Positions 17,686-36,977 of a DNA stretch of 64,000 nucleotides are shown in pieces. How positions within the stretch are numbered: position 1 is the first letter of the stretch; the number at the start of each line of letters is the position of its first letter. The notes under the pieces were generated by a model, which worked only from the letters and a program-made list of their open reading frames with translations, was not told the DNA's origin and made no database searches. Position numbers and translations under genes: made by a program. The DNA is from Gossypium raimondii (Eukaryota > Streptophyta > Magnoliopsida > Malvales > Malvaceae): assembly GCF_025698545.1 (NCBI RefSeq), contig NC_068566.1, positions 2,587,362 to 2,651,361 on the forward strand, read 5' to 3'.

Positions 17686-18021
17686 TAGATTCTTAGGAGA
17701 GTTGACGGAGGAAGAAAAAATTTGTTGTGCAAAGAGAGAGAGAGAGAGAGAGTCCTTGTTTTTTTGCTATTTGTCGGTTTTAAAATGGGTGCCTTTGTTC
17801 ATGCCCCTAACATAATATGTCTACTTGATATTAGTCCTCTACTCCCTAGAATCCAATTGACCTATTGATGTCATGTCCTCGTAGGTATGTATTGTCATGT
17901 TAAGACAATAGATAAATGTGATGTTCTTCGATACAGAAATTCTAGCAGCAAGTAGTCTGCTCCACTGCACTGAATTAAATCTAGTGGAGTAGAAGACTTC
18001 TTTTCACAACTTTTTACTCTA

Positions 18022-18030
18022 TACTTTAAA
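18022..18030 (+). repeat. 9-bp target duplication TACTTTAAA, left copy (Pack-MULE)
   Basis: The bases immediately left of the GGCATA terminus are TACTTTAAA. The identical nonamer follows the TATGCC terminus at 24295-24303. Nine base pairs is the hallmark target duplication of Mutator-superfamily transposition. Confidence 0.9.
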
Positions 18031-18401
18031 GGCATAATTGCAAAAAAAAAAAAAACAACCCTCAACGGTTGGGGGCTTTTGGTTTTGTGCCATTGGCCTT
18101 TTTTTTTATTGACATCCTCAACATTATGATTTTTCCATAAATTAACTCAATTTTAACAGTAAACATGAGTTGACAATTAGTCGAACGCCGGTCAACGAAA
18201 TAAGCCTATGTGACGTTATAGATGACATCATCTTTTTCTTTTTCATTTTGTTTCCATCTTCTTTCTTCTTCTCCCTTCCTCTCTTTCCCTGCTATTACAG
18301 TAAAAAAATAAAATTTGTAGTTCCCTTTCAATTTCAACTCAACCATTTAACACCTCACTCTTCCACAAGCTTCACTTACACCGGGATTCAACACCACTTT
18401 G

Positions 18402-21400
18402 TGTAACACCCCTAACTCATATCCATCGCCAGAATAGGGTTATAGGGCATTACCAGAGTTTACAAATTAATTTACAAACATTTCATTATTTCATCAAACA
18501 TTCATATTTATAACCAATCAAAATCAAAACATTAATGAGCTAACGTTGGCCAATTTAACTTATTCATGCCATTATAACCAGAATCAAATCATCCAAAATT
18601 ACTGATAAAACCAATGGATAGTGTGATATATCTCCAATAAGCTTCTAATCCAATCGAGCTTCCGATAATCATTTCAATGCATCTAATAATTATACATATT
18701 ACCAATAATAATTCAATTCCAATAATAAAATACATATTTATATAATATTCATCACCAAATAACATTCACTTTAATTAAAATTATACAAAATATAGTTCAT
18801 ACGAACTTACAAAGCTAAATTGCGAAATACCAAAATTTAGGGACATTTTGGTAATTTTCAATTTTCATCAAATTTTCACCCAATCTTGATCTAAATTAAT
18901 ATTTCATTCAATTTATTAATTTAAATAATAAAACAATTCATTTCATGAAATTTGGTCACTTTTGACATTTTTGCAAATTTACCCTTAAAGTTTCACATTT
19001 GTTCAATTCAGTCCTAAACTTAAAACATGTAAATTAGCTATTTTAAAATAATCTCATATTAGCTGAATATTCACATATATTTTTCTCCTCCTCTCCATTC
19101 CACATCCTTGGTATATACATAATACCACTATTTACTTATTTACTCATAACAAGCTATTCACTTAAGTCATGGTGACTAAATTAATCATATCTTAATCTAC
19201 AGAACTCTAAATTGAGATCCACTAATTTTATCTGCAACTAGACTCACATATATTCTTACCACAAAATTTTCAGAATTTTTGGTTCAGCCAATAAATACAG
19301 TTTATTTTTTAAAGTCATCCCTGTTCTGCTGTCTTACAGTTTTGACTCTTCTTCACTAAAAATTAATTATCTTCTCATACGTAATTCAGATGATGTTACC
19401 ATTTAATTATATTGAAAATAGACTCATTAAGGGTTTAAACATTTAAATTTAAGCCCCTAATTTGTTTTCTCCAATTTTTTATGATTTTCCAAAGTCAGAA
19501 TAGGGAACCGGAATTCATTCTGACCTTGTCTCACAAAATTTATTATATCTCATAATTTACAATTCCATTGATTACACTGTTTCTTCTATGAGAAACTAGA
19601 CTCAATAAGATTTAATTTCATATGTTTTTCATCCTCTAATTCAATTTCCATGATTTATGGTGATTTTTCAAAGTTAACCTACTATTTATGTCCAAAACTG
19701 TTTTAGTGCAAAATGTTGATTACTAAATTTATAACACCCTTATTCCCTTTCTCTATAGTATTTCCCATCACTTTCTCTTATTTTTCTTCACTAACATATC
19801 AAGAATATAGAACCTTATACAATAAAACCCTACATTAATATCAATTTCATACTTTTTCAATAATATCAAACTCAAAAATATATTGAAATCTTGATGTTCT
19901 TACCTTGCTCTATTGATTTCAATCTTTAACTTGATTTTCTCTCTCCTCCAGCCTCTATTTCTCGAATCTAACTTGATATTCTAGCTCCCCTTAGTCTCCT
20001 TATCAATTTTCTCTCTTGGTGGCTATGGAAATTTCTTTGAATTCTAAGTGAAAATGGTGAATTTTTGGTGTGATGATCAAATTGTAAAGAAAGAAAAACT
20101 TTCTTTCTTTCTCTCTTCTTCTCACGTTGATGCATGGAAAAATAGTGGGATGATGGCTTTTTTCTTTCTTTCTTTCTACATATATATACTAAATAAAATA
20201 ATAAAATATCATTAAAAAAATCAAATAAAATATTATAAACTAATATTTATTTATTTATCTAAAATATCTCCAACATCATCATTGCCTTCTAGATTTCTCT
20301 CTCCTTCTAATTGACCATTTTTCCCTTCATGATCTTTTAAAATTCCATCCTTCAGTCATCACTCAATTTGGTAAAATTATGATTTAGTCCCTCATAATTC
20401 TTCACTTATTCAATTTGGTCCTAATTCATCCATTTTCCTTAATTTCTAGATCATTTCACCCTTAAAATATTTGCACAATTAATCCTTCAACTTTTTCATA
20501 TTTAACCCCTCAAATTTTAAATATTTACTCTTGGGCAACAAAAATTTTCTCACTTTTGCGAATTAGTCCTTTCTTGCATTAATATGTCATAATATACTTC
20601 CCAATGTTAACATAAATCAAAATTTTGCTTTTTGTCACTTTATTTCCTTATTTTACTATATCAAGTATACCTACTTTCTTACTGTAGTAATTTTCAGGAT
20701 ACTACATTTTTCTCCCCCTTAAAATAAATTTCGTCTTCGAAATTTCCTTGTTCTGTTTTGATCATGAACTTCATCATTTCTATATTCTTTCAGTTATAAT
20801 TTTCTATCCATTCTTATCACTAACATATCAATATAATGTTTTCTTCATGCTGAGGATACAGCTCAAACACACAATCTTTCAACATTCTTTTAGCATGTAA
20901 ACCAAAAATCCTTTAAACCGTATTAGTTCAAGGAAACAAATATTCTGATTGAACTCATTAAATTTAATCAAATTTACCTGAGGAAAAATTCCATCATATA
21001 AATTTTAAGTTCATGCTCTCATTATTTTTTACTTTTGCTTATGACAATTCCTTACACGAAAATCAGAAAAGTCCAGATACCAAAATCACCACATTTCAGC
21101 TCTGAAATTTCATCGTAGCAAAACAATACACTTTTTAAATATGCATGCAAAACAGAATAATAACTGGTCATAAACCAACCAAACCAACAGGGTTTTCGTC
21201 TAACATCATAATTAGCTAACATTCTCATAACATAAGAACTCCATTAAAAACTGAACAATTATACACATATCTCTGAGGATAAAAGAATATATAGAATATC
21301 CAGAAAAGATCATCGTGTTCATTTTGATTGTAATCGTCACACACAGACATCTTTACCACTTAATTATCATTTCTCTGACTAATTTTGTTATCACGAACCT

Positions 21401-23270
21401 CACATTATTCCATTCACTGAAAAAATCAATTCAGAAGAACTTCCAGTAAATACATACGTTCTTTAGGTATCATACCTAAATATTTTGTCTCATCAAATTT
21501 AACTTCTTATTTAATCGTGACATTACATAATCCATAAAATCTTTAAAATAATCTAATATTTCTTTTAAAACTGAGCTCATTTGTTACACTATACTTAACT
21601 CTGTTTGCATTACTAATTATTTGACCACTGAACTCTTTTTAGTTCACATTTATGAGCTTATTCAACATGATTCTCGTAAAAATTTTGTCAAAAAGTAATA
21701 CTGATAAGGGGGTGATGGTGAGGTCGTAAAGCCTCTAACTTACTCTCACAAATACCTATATATATGACTTAGCATTCATCATCAATGTAATACCATCATA
21801 ATCACATAGTTCATTCCAAGCAAATTAACACATCTATTTATTATGAGTGTCTTCTGTCACCCACAATTTCACACAATGGATTTACTTACTCGAGCTCTAT
21901 ATTAATATCTAATTAAATTCCAATACTTTGCTTCCATTTTACTTACCAACATTTGTCAAATTAGAAAACGTCTTACGGTATTTTCTCGATGCCATAGTCC
22001 AACTTTGGTCTTACACGGAATCACATATCACACCAATATCATATCCCAGATATGGTCTTACACAGTAGCACATATCACATCGATGTCATATCCCAGATAT
22101 GGTCTTACACGGAAATCACATATCACATATTGCCATGGTCCAACCATCGTCTTTTCCGTCAATTTGTCTTTTATCACTGAACGAAAGTACTCAACCCTTC
22201 GTTCTACTCAATTTGATCTTCCAATTCAATTTTCATGTTATTATAATGTTTATATTTCAATAATAAAGACATAAAACAAAACATCATATTATTTCTAATT
22301 TAACAGTTAAACATAAGATTCTACCATATAAATATACTGATTACACTTATTCAAGCAAGTGTACATAAACTGTACTTATTGGCTAACCAAAAATTTTGAA
22401 AATTTTGTGGTAAGAAGATATGTGAGTCTAGTTTCAGATAAAATTAACGGATCTCAGTTCGGAGTTCTGTAGCTTAAGATATAATTAATTTAGTGACCAT
22501 GACTCAAGTGAAAAGCTTGTTATGAGTAAATAAGTAAATAGTGGTATTATGTATATACCAAGGATGTGGAATGGAGAGGAGGAGGAAAAATATATGTGAA
22601 TATTCAGCTAATATGAGATTATTTTAAAAATAGCTAATTTACATGTTTTAAGTTTAGGGACTAAATTGAATAAATGTGAAACTTTAAGGGTAAATTTATA
22701 AAATGTCAAAAGTGACCAAATTTCATGAAATGAATTGTTTTATTATTTAAATTAATAAATTGAATAAAATATTAATTTAGATCAAGATTGGGTGAAAATT
22801 TGAGGAAAATAGAAAATTACCAAAATGTCCCTAAATTTTGGTATTTCTGCAATTTAGCCTGGTAAGTTTGTATGAACTATATTTTGTATAATTTTAATTA
22901 AAGTGAATGTTGTTTGGTGATGAATATTATATAAATATGTATTTTATTATTGGAATTGAATTATTATTGGTAATATGTATAATTATTAGATGCATTGAAA
23001 TGATTATCGGAAGCTCGATTGGATTGGAAGCTTGTCGGAAATATATCACACTATCCATTGGTTTTATCAGTAATTTTGGATGATTTGATTCTAGTTATAA
23101 TGGCATGAATAAGTTAAATTGGCCAACGTTAGCTCATTAATGTTTTGATTTTGATTGGTTATAAATATGAATGCTTGATGAAATAATGAAATGTTTGTAA
23201 ATTAATTTGTAAACTCTGGTAATGCCCTATAACCCTATTCTGGCGATGGATATGAGTTAGGGGTGTTACA
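18402..23270 (-). mobile_element. LTR-retroelement derivative with inverted LTR ends, nested in the MULE
   Basis: It begins TGTAACACCCCTAACTC and ends GAGTTAGGGGTGTTACA, flanked by the 5-bp duplication CTTTG (18397-18401 and 23271-23275). On the minus strand 20706-18402 reads as a full LTR of about 2.3 kb (TGTAGTATCC...GTGTTACA). It is preceded by a polypurine tract AAGGGGGAGA at 20720-20711, itself preceded by a decayed polyprotein tail (NFEDEIYFKGEKN), typical of Ty3/gypsy elements. Interior 20721-22365 is the 3' internal region, non-coding. The right arm 22366-23270 is a nearly identical inverted copy of the last 900 bp of that LTR. A normal element has direct repeats, so this is rearranged. 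It splits the MULE between its left arm and the captured gene. Confidence 0.8.
22007..22140 (+). repeat. Tandem repeat of about 50 bp inside the LTR-element interior
   Basis: Three imperfect units start with GGTCTTACAC, each followed by CACATATCACA and ATATCATATCCCAGATAT-like text. Such CATATCCCAGATATGGTC arrays are part of the retroelement's internal region and explain the 89-codon frame here, which is not a gene. Confidence 0.75.
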
Positions 23271-23466
23271 CTTTGATCTTTATATTATAGGGCATTCAAA
23301 CAAAACATGCAGATCAGGATAGAACTCATACTAATATCATAATCAAATCAAAGGTTTACTTAGTAGCTAAAACAACTCCATCAATCAATAAACAATAAAA
23401 AAATGAGTTTTGGTTTCTCAAATGCTCAAGGCACACACACACACATATAGCAAAAGGGTCACTAAC

Positions 23467-24100
23467 CAATTCATCATTGCAGTAAACCTTGAAAGCACCG
23501 GAGCTTTGCAGAAAAGACTGCATTACATTCCTAAGAAGCCAAGTAGTTACAATGGACCCAAACCTGTTTGCAGCAAAGAATAATACCACAGCGATGGTGT
23601 CATATGGATTATGACATAATAATCTCTATAACTCCAATTTAGAAAACTGGAACCACTTTTGAAAGCAAACGTTTCGACAACAATGGTGGATAGTTATCAA
23701 GGATTACATCAATTCCAGGATACTAGGCTTCTAACATCTTCTTCATTGTCACAACGACTCCCCTGCAAATTTTCATCAATTACGTGCTCAATTGTCACTT
23801 GAAGAAAAATATCAACTATAATATCCAAAGAAAAGGAAAGCATCAAAAGAAAAAAAAAATCAAATAGAACCTGTAAGAGCATGAAGCGCAGAAATAGATA
23901 TTTACCGTGCAGCCATAGCCGATTCCTCCAATAACGCTAGGTTTTTTCAAAGGAAAAAAAGAAGAGGAGATAAATTGAATAAGAAATTCAGTTAAAATAA
24001 TATAAGAATGATTAAAGTTACCTATAAAGAAATATCTAGGTTTCAGGATTTAGCGGAGGTTTTGGTAGGTGGGGATGATGATGGTGATGGTGTAAATGAA
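23467..24100 (-). pseudogene. SELT: Selenoprotein-T-like gene fragment captured by the MULE
   Basis: SelT-like proteins are thioredoxin-like ER redox proteins. In plants they use Cys instead of selenocysteine. Three exon pieces read on the minus strand. The first, about 24100-24021, gives HHHHHHPHLPKPPLNPET then a stop. The second, 23936-23871, gives VIGGIGYGCTVNIYFCASCSY, which keeps the CxxC redox motif (CASC). The third, 23762-23467, gives VTMKKMLEA, a stop, YPGIDVILDNYPP, KRLLSKVVPVF, a stop, TPSLWYYSL, a 1-nt frameshift, ANRFGSIVTTWLL and QSFLQSSGAFKVYCNDEL, ending at a GTTAGT donor. A short stretch around the expected AGEQIFPM is deleted. The C-terminal exon is absent. Introns with GT/AG borders persist, so the capture was from genomic DNA, not cDNA. 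With several stops and a frameshift it cannot encode a full protein. Confidence 0.85.
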
Positions 24101-24294
24101 GCTTTTGGAAAAGTGAGGTGCTAAATGGTGGAGTTGAAACTGAAAGGGAACTGCAATTTTTTTTCATACATTTACAGTTAAAATTAGGTTGATTTCTGAA
24201 AAAATTATAATGTTGGAGGTGTCAATAAAAAAAAAAGGTTAATAACCAAAAACCTCCAAATATTAAGTTTTTTCTTTTTATTTGCAAGTATGCC

Positions 24295-24342
24295 TACTTT
24301 AAATTTTCCATTCTTCATTACTTTAAATTTTCCATTCTTCAT
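24295..24342 (+). repeat. 24-bp tandem duplication beginning with the MULE target site
   Basis: Two exact 24-bp units, 24295-24318 and 24319-24342, each start TACTTTAAATTTTCC. The first nonamer of unit 1 is the right target duplication of the Pack-MULE, so the element landed at the edge of this tandem repeat. Confidence 0.85.
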
Positions 24343-26095: not shown

Positions 26096-30212
<4,117 letters not shown>

Positions 30213-36536: not shown

Positions 36537-36977
36537 TTAATCGACACTCTGCATGATATCCTCAGCCGAAAACTTAGTACCCTTATCCTTATCAGCGGCA
36601 GCGCGTCCTTTAGCCTTACGATCCAGCAATGACTTCCGATCCTTGTCGAGTCTCAGCTTGGTGATGACAACCTTCGATGCGTTGATACCGACGTTGACGG
36701 TCGATCCGTTCACTTTCTCCCGCGTGATACGCTCAATGTGGATCACCCACTTGCGACGGTACACTTGCACGACTTTCCCTTCGCGGCCTTTGTAGGTACC
36801 GCGAACGACTTGGACCTCGTCGTCCTTGCGGACAGGCATGGACCGGACGTTGTATTTGGACCTCAGATCGGTCGAGAGTGGAGCGCTCATCAAAACACGG
36901 CGGACGGACGAAGGTGCCGTGAAATGGGCCTTGCGGCTCTTACGGCGAGAGGAGGAGACGCGTGGGTTGTACTTCAT
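36537..36977 (-). CDS. RPL26: 60S ribosomal protein L26 (uL24)
   Basis: This is a cytosolic large-subunit ribosomal protein that sits near the peptide exit tunnel. The 146-aa single exon begins [20 protein letters not shown] and carries the KOW motif at about residues 51-80 ([20 protein letters not shown] then [10 protein letters not shown]). It is highly basic and has the usual plant length, ending EDIMQSVD. There is no intron, as I recall for Arabidopsis RPL26 genes. Codon use is GC-richer than the surroundings, as expected for a highly expressed gene. The start is fixed by the conserved [15 protein letters not shown] and by the telo-box leader upstream. Antisense frames here are shadows. 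Confidence 0.97.

Follow-up and report, generated by a model that had tools for sequence, protein, structure and literature searches.

Pack-MULEs are known from rice, tomato, and other plants, and were reportedly described by Jiang in 2004. The gene fragments that Pack-MULEs carry commonly keep introns. Pack-MULEs are given a target-site duplication of 9 to 11 bp and TIRs of typically 100 to 500 bp (PMC3310237), and multi-copy Pack-MULEs with distinct target duplications and with donors on other chromosomes are described (PMC8277862).

The element at positions 18031 to 24294 of the window (the whole stretch of 64,000 nucleotides of Gossypium raimondii DNA that was analysed) belongs to the Pack-MULEs; it exists in several copies, and its donor, newly identified here, is a gene similar to selenoprotein T (SelT). 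With the Pack-MULEs of rice, tomato, and other plants (PMC3310237, PMC8277862, PMC8903248, PMC6446971), it shares long TIRs, a 9-bp duplication, the lack of a transposase, a host gene fragment, a donor on another chromosome, and several copies with distinct duplications, and only the identity of the donor and the host differ. The copy in the window additionally has been split by a retrotransposon, and one of its TIRs is shortened. Pack-CACTA and other Pack-TYPE elements likewise hold gene fragments between the TIRs of a non-autonomous DNA transposon, but the ends here read GGCATA and the duplication has 9 bp, in contrast to the 5-bp duplications of CACTA elements (PMC8903248). Four features that define a Pack-MULE (9-bp duplication, TIR length, no transposase, host gene fragment with a donor) were found, the duplication having been checked on the copies on contigs C2 (the window), C12, and C10; the copy on C1 has lost an end. 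Nothing in the element departs from its kind, and the process is well known. No capture of SelT by a Pack-MULE was found in the literature covered, which included work on Gossypium Pack-MULEs by title and lay mostly outside subscription journals.

The GGCATA ends and the perfect 9-bp duplication that the earlier note had reported are both present. The element starts with GGCATAATTGC and ends with GCAAGTATGCC, and the duplicated target is TACTTTAAA (Table 1). Its inverted repeats fall into two groups. The outer pair, the MULE TIRs, aligns in two blocks, 18031 to 18163 with 24171 to 24294 (75% alike) and 18307 to 18382 with 24089 to 24164 (88% alike), and has a left member of 356 bp and a right member of about 202 bp, the right TIR being without about 140 bp that are present in the left. 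These TIRs are shorter and more diverged than the inner pair (18402 to 19305 with 22365 to 23270), which is 96% alike. Without the element nested inside it, the MULE measures 1,390 bp and consists of the two TIRs flanking about 830 bp of SelT-like sequence; since TIRs and donor sequence make up the entire 1,390 bp, a transposase gene of its own is absent. No open reading frame of at least 120 amino acids was found within 18031 to 24294. The proposed SelT-like fragment with two introns was recovered as minus-strand coding blocks with two complete introns between them; it is present at 23467 to 24100, where it had been placed, but also extends into donor intron 3 on both sides of the nested element.

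Table 1. Features of the Pack-MULE in the window
Feature	Position	Strand	Basis or remark
Left 9-bp target-site duplication, TACTTTAAA	18022..18030	.	Also shorter repeat across empty junction
Left MULE TIR	18031..18386	+	Alignment with right TIR; related TIRs genome-wide
Innermost captured piece, from donor intron 3, separated from the rest by nested element	18387..18401	-	Donor match begins here
Left CTTTG copy of the nested element's duplication	18397..18401		
Nested LTR-retrotransposon fragment, not MULE	18402..23270	.	Inverted arms; CTTTG; comparison with L056 and L057; absent in other copies and donor
Right CTTTG copy of the nested element's 5-bp duplication	23271..23275	.	
Captured part of donor intron 3	23276..23466	-	Alignment with donor
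Captured donor exon 3, broken	23467..23762	-	In the donor frame, two stops plus deletions of 22 and 1 nt
Captured intron 2, complete	23763..23870	-	
Captured donor exon 2	23871..23944	-	
Captured intron 1, complete	23945..24021	-	Acceptor AG now AA
Captured 3' part of donor exon 1	24022..24092	-	One stop, one 1-nt deletion
Right MULE TIR	24093..24294	-	Inner border ambiguous by a few bases
Right 9-bp target-site duplication, TACTTTAAA	24295..24303	.	

The right target duplication forms the start of a perfect tandem duplication of 24 bases, TACTTTAAATTTTCCATTCTTCAT, at 24295 to 24342. Minus-strand open frames of a P-type calcium ATPase (Cation_ATPase_C and E1-E2_ATPase; 26096 to 29450) start about 1.8 kb beyond the right end of the element; they are probably one gene, whose 3' end faces the element. 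Further along, an open frame for ribosomal protein L26 lies at 36537 to 36977, also on the minus strand (PF16906, 1.9e-37).

The inner pair of repeats, which begins with TGTAACACC and ends with GGTGTTACA, bounds a nested fragment that has its own 5-bp duplication, CTTTG. This fragment is made up of one LTR of about 2.3 kb, part of an internal region, and about 0.9 kb of the same LTR in inverted orientation, and it matches the LTR-like direct repeats of about 2.3 kb and the internal sequence of elements on C13 and C6 (L056 and L057). It is a later insertion, because the other three MULE copies and the donor run uninterrupted through the nest site, where their sequence reads AACACCACTTTGG. As the inverted arms are thus nested and not those of the MULE, about 4.9 kb of the 6.26-kb interval is unrelated to the capture, and of the interval earlier assigned to the MULE as a whole it is the outer ends that stand. 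The nested element is probably younger than the capture, because its arms differ by 4%, in agreement with its absence from the other copies. Both of its outer ends are alike in kind, and all of it is inside one 5-bp duplication. With a 401-base query over the junction near 22365 to 22370, 41 rows besides the query itself were listed (best 40 of 4,196 candidates scored); none of these crosses the junction, and one is the left arm in the window itself. The nested fragment may be an aberrant integration product. The strongest GC skew of the window (-0.40 and -0.35, at 18001 to 22000) coincides with the nested LTR element.

The donor that the earlier note had proposed to look for was found intact on another contig, C9. 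A search of the genome (750.8 Mb in 281 contigs) with 23272 to 24294 gave at least 52 matches (best 40 of 118 candidates scored), among which the cargo occurs at five places: in the window (C2) and on C9, C12, C10, and C1. The remaining listed rows start at query position 818 or later, which is TIR. The C9 gene has four exons and 227 codons. Its introns (77, 105, and 290 bp) are of the GT-AG type, with the acceptor of the first picked by frame. In family searches the protein hits Rdx (PF10262, E 4.5e-20) as well as SelT/SelW/SelH (TIGR02174, E 2.2e-24), and in the PDB there is a single clear relative, 2ljk (E 6.7e-8), the other matches being weak. Donor and window copy are 88.6% identical over 856 alignment columns; the match ends at the TIR borders on both sides, and no TIR match was found in the 9.5 kb examined around the C9 gene. 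Searching the whole genome at the protein level (all 16 candidates scored, E up to 0.01) turned up 17 matches, each of them at one of the same five places (four on C9, three on C12, five on C10, four on C2, and one on C1), and only C9 reads intact. The single TAG reported inside the fourth C9 match belongs to intron 3, just before exon 4. C9 therefore appears to hold the only intact SelT-like gene of the genome. The asserted homology to SelT holds, but the donor is a cysteine form: the redox motif is FCASC in both donor and window copy, and neither has an in-frame selenocysteine codon.

The capture includes the final 72 bp of donor exon 1 and everything that follows, through the first 202 bp of intron 3. 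Because introns 1 and 2 are complete, the stretch was copied from DNA, as had been proposed, and that reading is further upheld by the donor and by the other copies with the same ends and breakpoints. In an alignment of the four copies with the donor, the intron 3 junction is common to C2, C12, C10, and C1, and the exon 1 junction to C2, C12, and C10; C1 has lost the end nearest exon 1. The copy on C12 is flanked by the perfect 9-bp duplication TATTCGAAA, and the copy on C10 by TTTAGATTT (9 of 9 bases in both). Element and duplication are thus more than chance, since C12 and C10 carry the same cargo and like ends with different duplications. A search for further copies with the same arms had been suggested; C12 and C10 do have the MULE ends and C1 has one of them, but the 96% arms are in none of the three.

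Empty sites were sought with joined flanks. Those of C12 gave at least 40 matches (best 40 of 497 candidates scored), three covering the whole query (1 to 300) and others nearly so; all three full-length matches, which are repeat copies elsewhere and were inspected, are continuous across the junction, and TATTCGAAA is unchanged and in single copy in L059 but has two changes in L058 and three in L060. The window flanks are mostly unique, and matches of 80 to 90 bases to a dispersed repeat cover the empty junction; in one of them (L063, 82 bp, 85%) the site is continuous and the 9 bases are in single copy with two changed. For C10, all seven candidates were scored, two of them being the copy's own flanks; one (C5, query 112 to 213, 102 bp, 80%) spans the empty junction, as seen from the alignment row only, and the other four do not cross it or do so by only a few bases. 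From the shared breakpoints, the distinct duplications, and the preserved empty C12 site it follows that there was a single capture and then transposition, with copies on at least four contigs.

All four fragments found are broken, so that the cargo is SelT-like as claimed but is a fragment rather than a captured gene. In the reading frame of the donor, the window copy is interrupted by three stops and by deletions of 1, 22, and 1 nt, and its intron 1 acceptor is altered; exon 4 and most of exon 1 are missing, and the copy does not qualify as a functional SelT-like gene, which would have an open reading frame with CxxC and a complete C-terminus. The C12 copy has two stops and two changed splice sites. 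The C10 copy likewise has two stops, along with five indels, and to one of these it has lost the intron 2 donor site. In the C1 copy there are three stops and a changed intron 2 acceptor, and nothing upstream of intron 2 survives. K2P distances from the donor are 0.092 (window), 0.084 (C12), 0.071 (C10), and 0.106 (C1), and those among the copies are 0.122 to 0.162, a nearly star-like pattern centred on a sequence that resembles the donor. Changes at codon positions 1 and 2 versus position 3 number 26/293 versus 15/148 in the window, 23/310 versus 15/155 in C12, 21/304 versus 9/153 in C10, and 21/212 versus 7/107 in C1; the two classes are changed about equally, and therefore no codon constraint is visible. 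Changes shared by pairs of copies occur at eight sites (C12 and C2), six (C1 and C10), five (C1 and C12), and three each (C10 and C2, C10 and C12, C1 and C2), those shared by triples at four, four, and one, and those shared by all four copies at five. A tree-like order of the four copies was sought in these changes; no copying order is given, because these patterns conflict and 21 of 40 shared sites are CG or CHG transitions.

C-to-T changes were counted on either strand with the donor as reference, and the tests take sites as independent. Pooled over copies, which enters shared changes more than once, they affect 27/117 CG, 54/226 CHG, and 55/827 CHH sites (23 to 24% versus 7% at CHH; Fisher p 2e-7 for CG and 5e-12 for CHG versus CHH). 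Counting each site once gives 18/32 CG, 37/62 CHG, and 45/232 CHH (p 2e-5 and 2e-9 versus CHH). When introns and exons are taken separately and sites at which all copies share a difference from the donor are set aside, CHG remains in excess in introns (16/66 versus 24/328 at CHH, p 2e-4), where the excess at CG is not significant (3/14, p 0.09); in exons the excess holds (CHG 38/156 and CG 20/99 versus CHH 27/491). CG and CHG methylation marks silenced plant transposons, and the bias is therefore best read as consistent with long silencing by DNA methylation. With CG and CHG sites excluded, the copies are 4.3 to 6.7% diverged from the donor. Assuming substitution rates between 3.5e-9 and 7e-9 per site per year, uncalibrated for this genome, this divergence would be roughly 3 to 10 million years old.

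The left TIR has at least 41 matches in the genome (best 40 of 242 candidates scored). Of 18 places checked for ends and duplications, C12, C10, and C1 included, seven have perfect 9-bp duplications, one has a duplication with a single mismatch, and two have duplications with two mismatches, which may be chance because several offsets were tried; in the other eight the scan found no 9-bp duplication. The interiors of the elements of this family (L021 to L035) differ; three of the 18 compared are the SelT carriers. Nine open frames from seven of the other 15 elements were scanned against Pfam. Two exceed the curated cut-off, matching protein kinase (L023, 1.7e-8) and Ras-type GTPases (L033, 5e-21), one matches SWIRM only below the cut-off (E 0.017), and six match nothing. 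The 901-base interior of L033 has matches elsewhere, for example at C10:2298560-2298987 (83% over query 40 to 433). L021 and L022 may carry a CRINKLY4-like fragment; the frame of L021 matches no Pfam family. From the kinase-like and Ras-like interiors, this TIR family seems to have captured more than one gene, repeatedly. An autonomous partner would be a MULE with these TIRs and a MURA-type transposase. For the MULE transposase domain (PF10551) there are at least 150 matches (best 150 of 2,055 candidates scored), and by eye none of the 150 listed lies within 20 kb of the 41 listed TIR matches.

We are highly confident of the following account as a whole. In one event, a non-autonomous Mutator-like element took up between its TIRs a copy of about 830 bp of the intron-containing SelT-like gene on C9, possibly by template switching or gap repair. 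It was then mobilised, so that at least four contigs now hold copies; the transposase presumably came from another element. The window copy inserted with its 9-bp duplication, was later split by the LTR retrotransposon, and decayed without encoding a protein, probably under DNA methylation of the type seen on transposable elements, the likely cause of the bias. That the SelT-like sequence is instead an ancestral or segmentally duplicated gene, flanked by chance by a pair of MULE ends, is hardly credible: the retained introns do indicate that the fragment was formerly part of a real gene, but there are four dispersed copies with both breakpoints common to three of them and one to the fourth, the homology stops at the TIR border, C12 and C10 differ in their duplications, and the empty C12 site is preserved. 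With the intact donor elsewhere, these dispersed copies contradict an ancestral SelT gene at this place, the case that the earlier note had named as fatal to a capture. It is equally improbable that the MULE forms a single transposon of 6.3 kb with the long inverted arms as its TIRs, as the earlier note had it. The 96% likeness of the arms over 0.9 kb would suit such a reading, but they match LTR-like direct repeats elsewhere, are flanked by a separate 5-bp duplication, and are missing in the other three copies; they belong to the nested LTR-retrotransposon fragment with its CTTTG duplication, and as MULE TIRs they were rejected.

The alternative that the fragment has been kept for a function, for instance as a source of small or antisense RNA regulating the C9 SelT-like gene in trans, we consider unlikely, if less so than the two above. 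It would accord with the presence of four copies beside one intact donor and with the long methylation that the CG/CHG bias suggests, and maize Pack-MULEs and other capturing elements are reported as siRNA reservoirs in a 2026 review (PMC13317346). Against it, all four copies found are broken, their codon positions have changed alike, and their divergence is nearly star-like; nothing points to retention by selection, and the bias fits silencing of the elements alone. Slightly smaller still is the chance we give to the idea that small RNAs from this lineage of at least four long-methylated copies act in trans and tune the single redox donor.

Capture from C9 followed by mobilisation and decay is cleanly resolved in this case, in that a single genome contains the donor together with both capture breakpoints, an empty site, and several insertions that are independent of one another. 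The copies can thereby serve as a usable natural experiment on whether a single-copy gene is affected by multi-copy fragments of itself, and on the speed at which captured coding sequence may be eroded by methylation.
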